A stretch of 45,322 bases of DNA from contig JADMJT010000022.1 of assembly GCA_018781585.1 (NCBI GenBank), positions 1-45,322 of the forward strand, read 5' to 3'. Positions within the stretch are counted from its first letter, which is position 1; every line of letters begins with the position of its first letter. Origin of the DNA: Burkholderiales bacterium (GTDB taxonomy: Bacteria > Pseudomonadota > Gammaproteobacteria > Burkholderiales > Thiobacteraceae). Of the stretch, positions 37,574-44,603 are shown one piece after another. Made by a program: the position numbers and the translations under genes. The notes under the pieces are model-generated. The model was not told where the DNA came from and ran no database searches. It saw only the letters and a program-made list of their open reading frames with translations.

Positions 37574-39700
37574 TCAAACCACGGGCAAGGTTACCGTCAT
37601 CACGACTCCCGCCCCATCCTTGCGATTCTCAGCGCGCACGCCGCCGCCGTGGTATTCGGCGATTAGGCGCGCGATGTAGAGGCCAAAGCCCAAGTGCGGC
37701 TCGTCGTCTGTCTGCCGTGGACGTACCGAGACCATGGATTGGAACAGCTGCCCCGCCATCTCTGCGGGCAGGGGCGGGCCTTCGTTCGAGAGCGTGAGTA
37801 CTGCATGCTGCTTTTCGCACGCCAGCGCGATATCGATCGAGCTTTCCGCGCGGTGAAAATCCACCGCGTTCGAGATCAGCTTGTCCAGCATCTGCGCAAT
37901 TAAGTCGGGGCCGCCTGACAATAAAATCGGCTCCGACGGAATGCGCAAGTTGAAAGCTACGTCGGGATAAGCGCCGCGATAGCCTTCCACGCAACCCGCC
38001 ACCACCGGGATGAGATCGAATGTTTCGCGCTCGGTGTTTTGCAAAGCCTGCTCCAGTTGCCGCGCCTCGGTCATACGGGTGAGCAGCGTGTTCAGGCGGC
38101 GGATGCCGTCCTGCGCGCGCTCCATATAGATCCGCGCCTCGTCCGGCACCGATTGTTGCGCCAGGTTATCGAGCGAAGAGCGCACCACAGCGATTGGCGT
38201 GCGCAGTTCGTGCGATAGGCGCGAGGCCATATTCTCCAGATAGTGGTTGTACTGTCCGAGCCGCGCCAAGACGCTGGAAAAGCTCCGCGACAAATCACCG
38301 ATCTCATCCGTGGCCAGTGCGCTTTGCTTCAACCCGCCCACCACGCGGCCTTTAGCATCGATCGCTGCTTCTGCTTCGTTACTCAATTTGCGGATGCGAT
38401 AAGACAAGCGCGAAGCGAATAGCAACATACCCAGCGCAACGATTAAGAACACCGCCAACACGCTGGTAAACAGTTTTTCCAGCGCTTGGTTGCGCAGGGT
38501 GAGCACACTATTGGTGGTTTCTTCCGTCACGGCAGCACCGATGATTTGATCCTGCACCCAAATCGGATGCGCGCTAGAGACGATCACCGCCTGCCCATCC
38601 ATTGTGGCGCGCCGTCCGGTTTGCGGCACACCGCGCAGCGCGCTCTCGATTTCCCGGGTCTCAAGGCGAGATGCTTTCGCGGTGTCATCGGTAAATGCAT
38701 CGGTTGGTTGCTGGAGCAGACGCGCATAGATCGGTCGCAGCGTGTTTGCCTTGATGCGTTCCAGCAGCAAGGGTTGTATTGGCGCCAAGGCTTGCTGGGC
38801 CTGTTTCAAGCTGCCCATTTCCGCGATCACGCGTTGGCTTTTATCCACCACCCGTATCCGGCTCGTCGCGCGCCCCAAGCCTTGCACCACTTGTTGAATC
38901 TCGGGCGAGGGTACGATCAAGCGCCCCATGCCTTCGCGCTGAGTGACAATCGAGGTGCTGATCCAGGCATTGATCCCCGATTCGGGCGCGCTCACCTCTG
39001 CGATGGCGAACGACAGCTTTTCTCCCAACAGCGATTGCGGCAAAGACAGCTCGACGTTGTAGCCGCCGGGGGTTTCGCGCCATACCGTTCGGATGCGGGG
39101 CTCGGGCTCGCCCAAGGCAAGCTTGCCATCTTGAAATTGCACCGCATACGCCGCACCCGTGCCGGGCCGTAGGGGGCTCACGGTAAACCGTTTAAATTCA
39201 CCCTCGGGCGTGGTGAGCGCGAACTCAACATGGTCGGCTGACTCGAGCCAGCTATTTTGTGCTGCGCGGTAATGCACTTGCGCGTCGGTCACTTCAATCA
39301 ACGCATAGACATAGGCGCCATGTTGGCCGAGGCGCAGTTTAAACGCGGCGCTGCTGGCCGATTCTGAAGTAGGCGGCGGCGTGTAAGTGTGCGCTGCCAA
39401 TGTGGCTGGCCAATCGGATACTGCGCCATCCACCTCCATGGCCGCGGGCAGGGCAAACAGATATAAATCACCTGGCTCGTGCCAGGGCGAGGCATGCCCC
39501 GGTTGCGGCTCGAACAAGCGCGGCCGGTCGTGCAAGGCCGTGGCCACCGCCTGCGCCGTCGCCGCGACCGATTGCTCGTGGCCCTGGCGCAGCGCGCGCT
39601 CCACTTCTTTCACAAAGGAGAGGCCGACCCAGGGCACAGCGAGCAGGGTGAGCGAGACGAGCAGCAGTTTTGCGCGGATGCTAAAGCGGGGGGTGATCAT
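37574..39700 (-). CDS. pdsS: Sensor histidine kinase of the proteobacterial dedicated sortase type
   Basis: This 708-aa inner-membrane kinase starts with a membrane segment (LLLVSLTLLAVPWVGLSFV), followed by a large periplasmic region containing a CBM9-like module (EVDGAVSDWPATL, about residues 85-245), a second membrane segment (LFTSVLAVFLIVALGMLLF), a HAMP-like linker, and a kinase core with His497 in RLSHELRTPIAVV and the ATPase box GFGLYIARLIAEYHGG. The architecture matches the kinase of the proteobacterial dedicated sortase system. The ATG at 39700 is preferred over a TTG at 39724. The partner regulator gene lies upstream across a repeat element. Confidence 0.85.
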   Translation of the reverse strand: MITPRFSIRAKLLLVSLTLLAVPWVGLSFVKEVERALRQGHEQSVAATAQAVATALHDRPRLFEPQPGHASPWHEPGDLYLFALPAAMEVDGAVSDWPATLAAHTYTPPPTSESASSAAFKLRLGQHGAYVYALIEVTDAQVHYRAAQNSWLESADHVEFALTTPEGEFKRFTVSPLRPGTGAAYAVQFQDGKLALGEPEPRIRTVWRETPGGYNVELSLPQSLLGEKLSFAIAEVSAPESGINAWISTSIVTQREGMGRLIVPSPEIQQVVQGLGRATSRIRVVDKSQRVIAEMGSLKQAQQALAPIQPLLLERIKANTLRPIYARLLQQPTDAFTDDTAKASRLETREIESALRGVPQTGRRATMDGQAVIVSSAHPIWVQDQIIGAAVTEETTNSVLTLRNQALEKLFTSVLAVFLIVALGMLLFASRLSYRIRKLSNEAEAAIDAKGRVVGGLKQSALATDEIGDLSRSFSSVLARLGQYNHYLENMASRLSHELRTPIAVVRSSLDNLAQQSVPDEARIYMERAQDGIRRLNTLLTRMTEARQLEQALQNTERETFDLIPVVAGCVEGYRGAYPDVAFNLRIPSEPILLSGGPDLIAQMLDKLISNAVDFHRAESSIDIALACEKQHAVLTLSNEGPPLPAEMAGQLFQSMVSVRPRQTDDEPHLGFGLYIARLIAEYHGGGVRAENRKDGAGVVMTVTLPVV

Positions 39701-39746
39701 GTTATTTGTAACGCCATGATTCAAGTCTTGTAGTCATTAATCGCAC

Positions 39747-39837
39747 AAATCCCTCCTACCCTCCCTTTGCTAAAGGGAGGAATCATCTCAAAACAAAATT
39801 CAGAGGGCGCCCCCTTTGAAAAAGAGGGGTAGGGGGG
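39747..39837. repeat. MITE-like imperfect inverted repeat between kinase and regulator genes
   Basis: CCTCCCTTT (39760-39768) pairs with AAAGGGAGG (39772-39780), and CCCCTTT (39811-39817) with AAAGAGGGG (39821-39829). The outer ends AAATCCCTCCTACCC and GGGGTAGGGGGGTTT are also near-complementary, so the whole 91-bp region could fold on itself. No open reading frame is present. It looks like a small non-autonomous repeat inserted between two cotranscribed genes. Confidence 0.65.
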
Positions 39838-39917
39838 TTTTGCCATGCCATGAACTATGGAATCCCCAATAGGTAAACCCATTTCGTGGGTGTAAATAGA
39901 GCGCTTCTCCAACCCCC

Positions 39918-40607
39918 TCATTCCTTCCACCGATAGCCCATGCCATACAAAGTCTCGATGGCATCGAAGGCGCTATCGATTGCCACGAATTTTTTGCGGA
40001 TGCGTTTGATGTGCGAGGTGATCGTGGCGTCGTCCACGGTGAGCTTGGCTTCACTCATGAGGTGGTCGCGGTCTTTCATGTGGCCGGGGAATTTTGCCAG
40101 CGCATGCACCATCCAAAATTCAGTGAGCGTGAGCGGGATGGCTTGGCTATTCCAGCTTGCCGCCATGCGCTTTAAATCCAGCATCAATTTGCCGCGCGTC
40201 AGAACCTCGTCCGCATCGGCGTGCGTCGCCACGGCATCCATGCGCCGGAATAGCGCGCTGATGCGCGCCAGCAAATGCGGCAGGCTTACGTCCTTAGTGA
40301 GGTAGTCGTCGGCACCCATGCGCAAGCCGGCCACGGTGTCGAAATCGCTGTCGCGCGCGGTGAGAAAAATAATCGCCAATTTTTCCGACTTCGCGCGTAA
40401 ATCGCGGCACAAAGTGAAGCCGCCATCGATTTCATCTTCCAGACCAATGTCGATGATCGCCAGATCCGGCAGCCGCGTTTGCACACCGGCCATTGCCTCG
40501 CGCCGGTTGGCATAGTCGGCAACCTCATAGCCCTGGCGGCGCAGCGCATCGGCGTAGTTGGCCCGAATCGCGGGCTCGTCTTCCACAATCGCAATGGATC
40601 TTCCCAT
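39918..40607 (-). CDS. pdsR: Response regulator of the proteobacterial dedicated sortase type (OmpR/PhoB class)
   Basis: This 229-aa protein has a receiver domain with phosphoacceptor Asp53 (LAIIDIGLEDE) and a C-terminal winged helix ending HIKRIRKKFVAID...ETLYGMGYRWKE. The conserved lysine is followed by Asp (DDYLTKDVSLPHLLARI) instead of the usual Pro, as I recall for this regulator subfamily. The ATG at 40607 fixes the receiver start; an ATG at 40631 is an alternative. It is divergent from the small membrane protein/CreD unit, with a direct-repeat operator candidate in between. Confidence 0.87.
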   Translation of the reverse strand: MGRSIAIVEDEPAIRANYADALRRQGYEVADYANRREAMAGVQTRLPDLAIIDIGLEDEIDGGFTLCRDLRAKSEKLAIIFLTARDSDFDTVAGLRMGADDYLTKDVSLPHLLARISALFRRMDAVATHADADEVLTRGKLMLDLKRMAASWNSQAIPLTLTEFWMVHALAKFPGHMKDRDHLMSEAKLTVDDATITSHIKRIRKKFVAIDSAFDAIETLYGMGYRWKE

Positions 40608-40658
40608 GGCGGCGACTATACCCGATCTCATGCGCGTGTGAAGCGGGCCGAATCCGCT

Positions 40659-40678
40659 GCCACAATTTCGCCACAATT
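40659..40678. promoter_or_regulatory. 11-bp-period direct repeat, candidate response-regulator operator
   Basis: GCCACAATT occurs at 40659-40667 and again at 40670-40678, a spacing of 11 bp centre to centre, one helical turn. OmpR/PhoB-class regulators bind such tandem direct repeats as head-to-tail dimers. It lies 52 bp from the pdsR start and 87 bp from the start of the divergent unit. Confidence 0.55.
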
Positions 40679-40765
40679 CATCCCCGGCATGCCTGGATTG
40701 TCCCTGCCCGCGCCCGATTTGGGGGCTTAAATGGGCAGCGTCATCCACACCCAAGGAGCGCTGCT

Positions 40766-40993
40766 ATGAACACAAAATCCGCCAATGTTTTCACCCGCAC
40801 CGTTTACACCGATTTTTTACGTTTCATGCTGGCGAGCCTGGCTACCGGCATGGTCGCCGCTATGTTGTTGAGTTCGGCGGTGATCCTGCTGTCGGTACCG
40901 AAGGCTATTTCGAACGACGAAGTAATCACCAGCGACAGCGGTAAGCGCGTGCGCACCACCTGGGCCGGCTTGCCCGGCGCGGAGATGGCGTAA
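40766..40993 (+). CDS. Small single-span membrane protein upstream of the CreD-like gene
   Basis: This 75-aa protein has one hydrophobic segment (FMLASLATGMVAAMLLSSAV, about residues 20-43) and a polar C-terminus. I recognise no family. The ATG has a strong RBS (AAGGAGCG, 40753-40760), and the stop overlaps the CreD-like start by one base (TAATG), so it is very likely a real gene cotranslated with it. The coding frame could extend upstream but that part lies over the regulator's promoter region. Confidence 0.75.
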   Translation: MNTKSANVFTRTVYTDFLRFMLASLATGMVAAMLLSSAVILLSVPKAISNDEVITSDSGKRVRTTWAGLPGAEMA

Positions 40994-42240
40994 TGACGAA
41001 GCGACTGATTGCGATTGCCCTGGTATTCGGCGCGACCGCGCTGGCATGGATGATTTTGGGTGGCAGTATTTTCAGCCGCACGCATGAAACCGGTGGTCGT
41101 TTAAAAGATGGCGTGAGCGGCTTATGGGGCGGCGCGCAAATCCAAACTGCGCCCACCGCCACGCTTGCAGGAAAGGAGACTCGGCGAATTGAGAGCGAAG
41201 ATAAAAAGGGCAATCGCAAGTTCAAGCTGGTAGAAAGCGAATTCCAATCAGCTCTCCCGCTTGAAGCCAGCAAAATCAAAATCGGCTTCGATCTGGCGCA
41301 CCGGCAAAAGGGACTACTGTGGTATGCCACCTACAAAGTGCAATACGCGGGGCTGTATCGCTTCGTGAACGATAGCGGCAAGGCAGGCGACCTCACTATT
41401 ACTTTTCCCTTCCCCGACAAGCAAGCGGTGTATGACGATTTCGTGTTCCGCGCGCATAGCAAGGAGTGGAAAACCGCGCCGGCGCCCAGCGCAGGTTTCG
41501 TAAACGGCGTGCTCAGTTTAGCGCCCGGCGAGGCTGTGCAAGTTGAAGTTAGTTATCGTTCGCAAGGCCTGGATTCCTGGCGCTATCAATTCGGTTCCGG
41601 TGTGGGTGAAGTCAAAAATTTCCAACTCAATATGGATACCAATTTCCGCGACATCGATTTCCCCGCCGATGGCCTGGCGCCTGGCGTTAAAGAGAAAACC
41701 GACACCGGTTGGCGTTTGAGCTGGGACTACAAGCACTTGGTATCCGGTGCCAACATCGGCATGGTCATGCCGCAAAAGCTGCAACCCGGACCGCTCGCGG
41801 GGGAGATCGCTTACTTTGCACCGGTGTCGCTGCTGTTTTTCATCGTTGTTATGTTAGTGATCGGCGTGATGAAGCAGATCGACATACACCCCATGCACTT
41901 CGCGTTTATTTCAGCGGCGTTCTTCGCCTTCCACCTGCTGCTCGCCTACCTCGCGGATCAACTCGAATTCATTTGGGCATTCGGGCTATCCGCTGCCGTG
42001 TCGGTGTTCCTGGTAGTGAGCTACCTGCGCTTGATCTTCGGCAATCGCTTCGCCTTCGGCTACGCAGGCTTGGCCCAAGTCGTGTATCTGGTGCTGTTTT
42101 CCTACGCCTTTTTCTTCAAGGGCCTAACCGGCTTGACCATCACCGTGGGTGCGATTTTGACCTTGTTCGTGTTGATGCAAGTCACGGTGAAGGTGAATTG
42201 GAAGCAAGTTTTTGCGCAGAGGAGTGCTAGCGCCAGCTAG
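40993..42240 (+). CDS. CreD-family inner membrane protein
   Basis: This 415-aa protein has one N-terminal membrane segment (RLIAIALVFGATALAWMILG), a long periplasmic region (about residues 30-270) and a C-terminal group of about five or six membrane segments ending GLTITVGAILTLFVLMQVTV. The C-terminal part matches the CreD family, inner membrane proteins controlled by the CreBC two-component system in E. coli and linked to envelope integrity and beta-lactam response in other species. Function is not biochemically defined. It is cotranslated with the 75-aa protein and followed by a terminator. Confidence 0.82.
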   Translation: MTKRLIAIALVFGATALAWMILGGSIFSRTHETGGRLKDGVSGLWGGAQIQTAPTATLAGKETRRIESEDKKGNRKFKLVESEFQSALPLEASKIKIGFDLAHRQKGLLWYATYKVQYAGLYRFVNDSGKAGDLTITFPFPDKQAVYDDFVFRAHSKEWKTAPAPSAGFVNGVLSLAPGEAVQVEVSYRSQGLDSWRYQFGSGVGEVKNFQLNMDTNFRDIDFPADGLAPGVKEKTDTGWRLSWDYKHLVSGANIGMVMPQKLQPGPLAGEIAYFAPVSLLFFIVVMLVIGVMKQIDIHPMHFAFISAAFFAFHLLLAYLADQLEFIWAFGLSAAVSVFLVVSYLRLIFGNRFAFGYAGLAQVVYLVLFSYAFFFKGLTGLTITVGAILTLFVLMQVTVKVNWKQVFAQRSASAS

Positions 42241-42249
42241 CACGTTTGC

Positions 42250-42283
42250 CCGCCTGGGCCATTGGGCCTGGGCGGATTTTTTT
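42250..42283 (+). terminator. Rho-independent terminator after the CreD-like gene
   Basis: CCGCCTGGGCC (42250-42260) pairs with GGCCTGGGCGG (42265-42275), with two G-T wobbles, around loop ATTG. A run of seven T follows after one A. Confidence 0.82.
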
Positions 42284-42295
42284 GAGGAGAAAGCG

Positions 42296-42418
42296 ATGTT
42301 ACTAAGCTATTTAATTTATCGGTTTGCGTTGCCGCGCTATTTTACGAAGCAGCGTTATGAAGATGAGTCATGGTTGCTCGGTGCGGAAGCCTGGGTAGCA
42401 ACAGATAAAAACCGTTAA
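42296..42418 (+). CDS. Small open frame of 40 aa, unrecognised
   Basis: MLLSYLIYRFALPRYF begins a 40-residue peptide with an amphipathic start and polar tail. A strong RBS (GAGGAG, 42284-42289) lies 6 nt before the ATG. It follows the terminator of the CreD-like gene by 13 nt, so it would depend on read-through or its own promoter, which I do not see. I do not recognise a family. Confidence 0.4.
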   Translation: MLLSYLIYRFALPRYFTKQRYEDESWLLGAEAWVATDKNR

Positions 42419-43942: not shown

Positions 43943-44368
43943 TTAAGCGGCGGCCAATTCTTTTTTCTTTTTCGGTCGTCCACCCAGCTTGCCATTCGCG
44001 CGCGCTGCGGCGGTCTTGGCTGCGCTCTTGTTTGCACCGCCTATTTTGCCGATCTGTGCTGCGATCCAGCGCTTGGATCCGAGGAAACCTTCGAGTAAAG
44101 CGGGGATATAGATGTCTGCATCAAGGCGCGGAAAGTGGATGCCTAAACCAGAAGGGCTAATTTCAGCACCCGTGAGATCGGCGGGATGCGCGTGCTCCAA
44201 CCCCTGTGCGTGTTTCGGTGAGAATGCGAGTTCAAGACCCGTCGCCAGGGTGATGACAACGCGCGATACGCGCCGGTCGTAACGAACCGAAACTGCGACT
44301 GGGAAGGCCGCTTTTTTCCCCACCCCGCGTTGGTTCGCGGCTGCAATTTCTTTATCGGTAATCGTCAT
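43943..44368 (-). CDS. DUF2442-family protein with basic tail
   Basis: This 141-aa protein carries a DUF2442 domain (VVITLATGLELAFSPKHAQG and the SPSGLGIHFPRLDADIYIP core). The C-terminal third is rich in Ala, Lys and Gly and ends LGGRPKKKKELAAA, a basic tail that could bind nucleic acid. It overlaps the upstream DUF4160 gene by 17 nt. DUF2442 proteins are often found beside DUF4160 proteins, and the pair is often proposed to be a toxin-antitoxin module; which partner would be toxic is unknown. Confidence 0.8.
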   Translation of the reverse strand: MTITDKEIAAANQRGVGKKAAFPVAVSVRYDRRVSRVVITLATGLELAFSPKHAQGLEHAHPADLTGAEISPSGLGIHFPRLDADIYIPALLEGFLGSKRWIAAQIGKIGGANKSAAKTAAARANGKLGGRPKKKKELAAA

Positions 44369-44603
44369 GGATATCGCTCCATTTTTCGCACAGCATGGCC
44401 AAATTGACGGCTAGATTGGCCTGAATTCTGACCAGTTCCTTTTTTGGAAAGCCGTAGTTCTCACGTAATTCTGGCGGGCCTTCCGGGCAATTCAGTTTAA
44501 ATATTACCTCGCAACCTTTTCCGATCACATGTACATGCGCTGGCTGGTGGTCGTTTGGATAGACCGTAACGCGCAGTCCATCGATCAACAGTATAGTCGG
44601 CAT
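44352..44603 (-). CDS. DUF4160-family protein
   Basis: This 83-aa protein matches the DUF4160 family: MPTILLIDGLRVTVYPNDHQ is followed by PAHVHVIGKG, the HXPXHVHV-type signature, and an acidic C-terminus (WSDIHDDYR). It is the first gene of a two-gene unit with the DUF2442 gene. The upstream 84 bp are markedly AT-rich compared with the surrounding DNA. A minus-strand TTGATT (44650-44655) and TAAATC (44627-44632) spaced 17 bp could be a weak promoter. Confidence 0.82.
   Translation of the reverse strand: MPTILLIDGLRVTVYPNDHQPAHVHVIGKGCEVIFKLNCPEGPPELRENYGFPKKELVRIQANLAVNLAMLCEKWSDIHDDYR

Follow-up and report, generated by a model that had tools for sequence, protein, structure and literature searches.

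What does a sortase-type two-component pair regulate in a genome that encodes no sortase? The question is raised by the pdsR and pdsS genes of a Burkholderiales bacterium, which lie in the 45,322-nucleotide stretch of DNA analysed here (the window), back to back with genes for a small membrane peptide and a protein related to CreD. A dedicated sortase system comprises PdsR (TIGR03787), PdsS (TIGR03785), a class GN sortase (TIGR03784), its target (TIGR03788) and PdsO (TIGR03789). The preliminary description of the window had proposed that the regulators are wired here to a CreD-like unit, in a circuit resembling CreBC-CreD, suggested to be an envelope-stress module, whose output would be the peptide plus CreD. 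The parts of the locus are the following.

37574..39724, minus strand: pdsS, sensor histidine kinase (TIGR03785, 748.3 bits, cut-off 612.2; HisKA and HATPase_c)
39918..40607, minus strand: pdsR, response regulator of the OmpR/PhoB type (TIGR03787, 387.2 bits, cut-off 335.7)
40615..40642, minus strand: candidate pdsR promoter TTCACA-16-TATAGT (one site against 1.2 expected by chance, weak alone)
40658..40682, plus strand: putative PdsR-linked operator TGCC-N7-CGCCACAATTCATC, tandem half-sites with an 11-bp period
40726..40732, plus strand: CTTAAAT, a possible -10 for the divergent promoter (distance to the second half-site, 57 nt)
40766..40993, plus strand: 75-aa single-helix membrane peptide with a [DE]-x11-G core, no Pfam or NCBIfam match
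40993..42240, plus strand: CreDl, diverged CreD-family membrane protein of 415 aa (PF06123, 50.8 bits)
42250..42285, plus strand: terminator-like hairpin and T-run after CreDl, the longest stem of its kind (11 pairs)
42296..42418, plus strand: 40-aa ORF with a W-x-LG-x-EAW motif, in the same slot in 7 of 7 PdsR-positive congeners

The divergent gap between pdsR and the peptide gene measures 158 bp (40608-40765). The peptide stop and the CreDl start share one base (TAATG), and with the Pfam CreD match this bears out the operon that had been proposed for the two. For pdsS, the ATG start is probably at 39703, and the pdsR mRNA may be leaderless, since the promoter-like -10 ends 7 nt ahead of the ATG. 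Terminator-like sites numbered four in the window against 3.7 expected.

PdsS and PdsR belong to the sortase family of two-component pairs, and their genome has neither sortase nor target. Both pass the cut-offs of their NCBIfam families, and their assignment to the sortase-system type stands. Searches of the whole genome (2.84 Mb in 134 contigs, 98.7% complete) with the sortase profiles TIGR03784 and PF04203 and the target profile TIGR03788 gave no match at E ≤ 0.001; the earlier remark that neither gene is visible near the pair thus holds for the entire assembly, and a sortase elsewhere in this genome was rejected on these searches. When the pair alone was searched, CreB was the second-best NCBIfam match of PdsR (156.7 bits, equivalog cut-off 273) and CreC the third-best of PdsS (135.9 bits, equivalog cut-off 356), neither cut-off being reached. 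The predicted model of PdsS (mean pLDDT 80.6) shows a beta-rich region ahead of the second long helix. A CBM9-like stretch of the protein scored 19 bits, under the Pfam cut-off of 23.4, and the 50 top rows of a Foldseek search with the model were kinases, phytochromes and the like.

Among 100 genomes of relatives (own genome included), 21 carry PdsR above the cut-off, with at least 344 bits against 158 for the next best match. Sortases above the cut-off occur in three (G001, G032 and G037), each less than 3 kb from pdsR, and G001 is the sole sortase-positive genome of the same genus in this sample. Two other sortase matches fall below the cut-off, one of 56.6 bits beside pdsR in G019 and one of 138.9 bits in G092. 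Seven congeners are PdsR-positive (G000, G001 and G003 to G007), and G002, which is 66% complete, is without PdsR. The divergent slot of these seven holds the peptide and CreDl in four (G000, G003, G004, G007), the peptide and no more than the last 15 codons of a deleted CreDl in G005, and a target and a sortase in G001 (TIGR03788, 819 bits; TIGR03784, 224 bits; both above cut-off). That of G006 has no peptide, CreDl, target or sortase, and a different short signal-like ORF instead. Thus, the slot is constant and its cargo is variable. A sortase preceded by the same repeat, which would have spoken against the CreD circuit, is absent from the genome itself but present in the sister species G001, whose target and sortase lie behind the operator. 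More widely, 46 of 103 pdsR loci hold neither a sortase or target nor a peptide of the 75-aa type; 11 of these 46 match the glycine-zipper pattern of PdsO-like proteins, and two PdsO-like proteins that were checked reached 157 and 227 bits with the PdsO profile, whose cut-off is 152.

The direct repeat that had been noticed in the divergent gap is real. It reads GCCACAATT-N2-GCCACAATT (40659-40678; a 9-bp unit with an 11-bp period) and forms part of TGCC-N7-TGCCACAATTSATC, a motif read by eye from 21 loci. In the 102 of 103 pdsR gaps compared with dinucleotide shuffles, a 14-base half-site with at most one mismatch was found in 43 (a fraction of 0.000 of shuffles) and with at most three in 86 (0.134 of shuffles), the gaps belonging to mutually related loci and not being independent events. 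Furthermore, 79 gaps of loci L051 to L130 (L053 has no gap sequence) played no part in defining the motif; the half-site occurs in 27 of them at one mismatch or fewer, against 0 of 476 control windows taken elsewhere within the same loci, and in 63 at three or fewer, against 9.2% of these windows. Of the 63 matches, 27 have TGCC at an upstream distance of exactly 11 nt, compared with none or one at each of the 13 other offsets between 6 and 19. Sortase loci, PdsO loci and peptide loci are all represented among the matching gaps, and a repeat particular to the peptide-CreD operon is out. Sixteen of the 102 gaps have no operator at three mismatches or fewer, among them those of peptide loci (L065, L115) and sortase loci (L052, L118, L120, L124, L129). 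Judged from this distribution, the repeat is a probable PdsR-linked operator that is present in most pdsR gaps sampled, including sortase loci. Its regulatory look, as first described, is borne out by both shuffles and control windows, but not its tie to a CreD circuit, as sortase loci share the operator.

Within the genus, a search of eight genomes at up to two mismatches returned 27 operator matches and a single one for the reversed control pattern. Seven are the congeneric pdsR gaps, all with 0 or 1 mismatch, two precede peptide genes unlinked to pdsR, and 18 are others, one with one mismatch and 17 with two. Three of these 18 (G002:C5, G000:C53, G000:C15) and a fourth imperfect site, G000:C128, were inspected; each lies across a long open frame, and no core peptide follows any of them. 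The candidate -10 CTTAAAT is separated from the second half-site by 57 nt in six congeneric pdsR gaps and by 47 nt in G003, about one helical turn less; in both unlinked copies (G001, G006) it lies 58 nt from the operator.

The peptide itself has one hydrophobic segment by hydropathy and belongs to a family of its own. Standalone peptides, picked by hydropathy and by eye, were counted in 26 of 103 pdsR loci (L033 is placed with the sortase loci, outside the 26), and these 26 loci are free of sortases and full targets, which is partly so by definition. Twenty-eight peptides align without gaps over a 31-column core, with an acidic residue and a glycine in 27 of the 28. When each cluster was left out in turn, 16 of 30 peptides (of L032, L036 and L042, the C-terminal part was used) outscored all 2293 control helices and 28 fell within the top 0.7%; the outliers were L042 and L071, whose scores were equalled or exceeded by 320 and 45 of the 2293 controls. 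At E < 1e-4, the family profile matched 18 of 21 PdsR-positive genomes and 0 of 79 PdsR-negative ones (Fisher 4e-17; best match among the 79, E 0.0027), with the qualification that 13 of the 18 supplied profile sequences, that the peptides of G004, G005 and G007 are near-identical to that of the own genome and that of G081 to that of G035, leaving only G019 clearly independent, and that distant peptides in PdsR-negative genomes could therefore be missed. The three PdsR-positive genomes missed are G032 and G037, where target and sortase are present, and G077.

Perfect operators also occur away from pdsR, at G006:C22 and G001:C60, in congeners without a peptide beside pdsR. The order is the same at both sites: the operator, CTTAAAT, and then an ORF with the same [DE]-x11-G core, of 69 aa from ATG (77 from an upstream TTG) in G006 and of 78 aa in G001. 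Both peptides were found by the operator, and with a profile built without them they outscore all 2293 controls. A link of the peptide to a PdsR regulon is supported at the sequence level. Eleven peptide pairs, chosen as near relatives and all reported here, gave dN/dS values of 0.08-0.20 in the five pairs drawn from four close congeners, 0.46 in the comparison with G003, 0.07 for L034/L035 and 0.27-0.60 in four other pairs; purifying selection within close groups is supported by these ratios. Chance origin of the open frame was rejected on the dN/dS values, the co-occurrence with PdsR and the leave-out scores. In the 13 of 26 peptide loci measured, the peptide accompanies PdsS of 712-787 aa (the long form) as well as of 509-601 aa (the short form), so a shared membrane or kinase contact would be likelier than one with the variable sensor region. 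Judged by where it occurs, the peptide is what stays constant in this branch, and it probably forms the core output of the circuit or its brake, because it is kept behind the operator where CreDl has decayed or where the peptide gene is unlinked. This role would hold for one mainly betaproteobacterial branch and not for every PdsSR system.

CreDl passes the Pfam CreD cut-off (23 bits) and scores 49.1 bits against the CreD equivalog NF008712, whose cut-off is 275. In its predicted model (mean pLDDT 68.6), a beta-rich domain lies between a helix at the N-terminus and helices at the C-terminus; a Foldseek search with it gave TM-scores of at most 0.29 by query length, with rows including aminopeptidase N and ligand-gated channels, none of which is taken as a relationship. 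Of 399 genomes of the order, six have a match above 700 bits to the CreDl profile, four from this genus and two, G138 and G266, from genus g83. Apart from the decayed g83 copies described next, the other matches reach at most 45 bits and align mainly at the C-terminal end, the pattern seen for canonical CreD. Two further g83 genomes keep remains of the gene, G175 as fragments with stops (best 124 bits) and G349 as the C-terminal 73 residues (114 bits), and in all four g83 genomes an intact peptide precedes CreDl or what is left of it. There, pdsR is divergent in G266 and G349, has its 5' end at the contig edge in G175, and lies beyond the end of the G138 contig. Elsewhere, CreDl follows the peptide in two named MAGs, L125 and L073 (the latter with the record name Bordetella parapertussis, the label as given), a full canonical CreD (489 bits) does so in L065, and a 111-aa CreD remnant follows an intact peptide in G067. 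The creD of G014 (L169) is separated from pdsS by other ORFs. The pdsR-creD linkage on which the first interpretation depended therefore recurs in four of seven congeners, in two intact g83 copies (one with pdsR on its contig) and in L073, L125 and L065. CreD is nevertheless a variable passenger: G005, G175 and G349 retain the peptide but have a deleted or decayed CreDl. Accordingly, the output first proposed for the circuit survives in part: the peptide is constant in the branch, and CreD is not. CreDl is perhaps optional, envelope-related cargo, by analogy with its family.

We propose that phosphorylated PdsR would bind the tandem half-sites in the divergent gap and would activate the divergent promoter with CTTAAAT as its -10. 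The core product would be a small, single-pass protein of the inner membrane, presumably with its basic N-terminus inside, and in this species it would be co-translated with the CreD-family envelope protein. In the membrane the peptide may contact the helices of PdsS and report to the kinase or damp it, as MgrB does with PhoQ; by that analogy, PdsS is its most likely point of action. The proposal is favored because the peptide tracks PdsSR across genomes and sits behind the operator even when unlinked. As a whole, with a small membrane protein switched on by PdsR and acting on PdsS and with CreDl as optional cargo, we give it an even chance of being right.

An envelope circuit like CreBC-CreD, with CreDl as the real output and the peptide as its small partner or translational coupler, would account for the one-base overlap, for the likeness of PdsR and PdsS to CreB and CreC, and for the fact that 6 of 6 intact CreDl copies in the 399 genomes directly follow such a peptide, an order that recurs in L073 and L125 and, with canonical CreD, in L065. 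CreDl is itself constrained (dN/dS 0.07-0.15), and loss of creD is described in PMC4689548 as harming the envelope of S. maltophilia. Nonetheless, of the 18 genomes found to have the peptide in the set of 100, 4 carry CreDl at pdsR, the peptide is intact where CreDl is lost or decayed (G005, G175, G349) or where a CreD remnant is left (G067), and the unlinked peptides of G001 and G006 have no CreD-like ORF after them, all of which makes CreDl as the output doubtful.

Small membrane proteins of an effector type, whether pore-, stress- or toxin-like, exist, and a small single helix behind a conserved operator could be one of them, induced by PdsR without regulating PdsS. We consider this rather unlikely, as a specific partner fits better with the conserved acidic residue and glycine, the co-occurrence with PdsSR and the likeness to target leaders described below. 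The same likeness, the lack of a full target in all 26 standalone-peptide loci (partly a matter of definition) and the intermediate look of G019 (L033), where a core-bearing ORF precedes a sub-cut-off sortase-like gene, would suit a relic, the peptide being a remnant of a lost sortase target that drift has preserved. Against this stand the dN/dS of 0.07-0.20 in close groups, the open frames maintained in many families, the unlinked copies behind perfect operators, and G001, which has a target at pdsR and the peptide elsewhere; a relic is unlikely, and we leave it only a slender chance. Regulation of PdsS by a PdsR-controlled peptide is thus the reading we prefer.

The likeness to leaders concerns a minority of targets. 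Nine of 28 targets have no leader by the rule used; among the 19 others, six leaders (L095, L126, L107, L121, L129 and L091) rank above 99.6% or more of the 2445 control helices, which include two slot ORF segments (L033, L047), and 13 are unremarkable, those of G001 and G037 among them. Of the 19 leaders, 5 have the [DE]-x11-G motif, compared with 74 of 2478 controls, and the L045 peptide can be read in parallel with the L095 leader. The most fitting view of the peptide is as a stand-alone relative of the leader that one branch of targets uses, and either form may have come first. It is possible, and we put it forward tentatively, that the membrane leader of a target became a free-standing, PdsR-controlled microprotein family that acts on PdsS and outlived the sortase, with optional cargo such as CreD added and lost. 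With the same reserve, this origin would place the family in the mainly betaproteobacterial branch, behind one conserved operator. It is weakened by the sister species G001, whose own target leader does not match the core, 65% of controls scoring as high. If it were true, the leader of the target in some intact sortase systems would itself talk to the kinase.

The locus can be compared with three known systems. With the dedicated sortase system it shares a regulator and a kinase that pass the cut-offs and an operator common to many sortase loci, including that of G001, and it differs in having no sortase or target in its genome and the peptide and CreD-like genes in the slot. Its resemblance to CreBC-CreD (BlrAB) is borne out at the level of layout: a two-component pair related at a distance to CreB and CreC adjoins a CreD-family gene, and a tandem operator has the same 11-bp period. 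The cre/blr tag is given as TTCAC-N6-TTCAC in PMC4689548; by eye, it is absent from the gap, which has GCCAC half-sites instead. Unlike CreBC-CreD, the regulators belong to other families by cut-off, the operator sequence differs, and the creD-like gene is divergent, diverged, lost in some relatives and preceded by a peptide gene. MgrB is described as a small protein in the regulon of its own pair, PhoQ/PhoP (PMC2789325), and the peptide, likewise small and with a single helix, apparently also belongs to the regulon of its cognate pair. In contrast to MgrB, it has no NCBIfam or Pfam family match and is similar to sortase-target leaders, and the contact with its kinase is proposed by analogy.

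No study of the PdsR/PdsS pair was found in the open-licence literature, subscription papers being mostly outside the search. Class GN sortase is said in PMC10581121 to have an unknown role in Gram-negative bacteria, TIGR03784 is mentioned in PMC3237569 and PMC3415414, and pdsO in PMC9927453 and PMC12114352. The conserved operator and the conserved microprotein give the PdsSR pair concrete, testable outputs, and the peptide may join the small membrane proteins that tune sensor kinases, its likeness to the leader of a secreted protein being traceable here.

Several other features of these loci deserve mention. The junction between pdsR and pdsS (39726-39915 in the window) seems to be a spot that collects hairpin elements, as does the same junction in L043, L039 and L050. 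Differing palindrome-like inserts are present there in the window and in G004, G006 and G007 (partly read as N), and the two genes are contiguous in three congeners (L038, L041, L044). An inverted-repeat search of the junction returned none at the settings used, and palindrome-like runs are visible by eye; such inserts could alter the dose of the kinase. Downstream of CreDl, the ribosome-binding site of the 40-aa ORF abuts the T-run of the terminator-like hairpin, and in G001 and G006 the small ORF with the W-x-LG-x-EAW motif is the first after the operator. Two adjacent small ORFs of 141 and 83 aa lie on the minus strand at 43943-44603, with similar ORFs in the congener loci L043 and L044.

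Among the more distant loci, L033 (G019) may carry a pseudo-sortase directly after its core-bearing ORF, at about +800 to +1456 from pdsR; this sortase-like gene scores 56.6 of the required 158.25 bits and, by eye, is without the catalytic-type histidine and cysteine of the G001 sortase. At about +494 to +2695 from pdsR in L047 (G077), a 242-aa ORF whose core-like helix is weaker is followed by an apparent transposase, identified by eye, and is perhaps a target gene cut by insertion. The 139-bit sortase-like match of G092 (G092:C92:368-676, L203) lies near a contig start, in a genome without PdsR above the cut-off. Finally, a second family of short peptides, with FEPLR before a C-terminal helix, is found near pdsR in seven loci: six of the 46 without sortase, target or 75-aa-type peptide (L076, L077, L088, L096, L103 and L116), and L087, where the FEPLR peptide stands together with a sortase target. 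Five of the seven records are Dyella, Rhodanobacter, Frateuria or Luteibacter.
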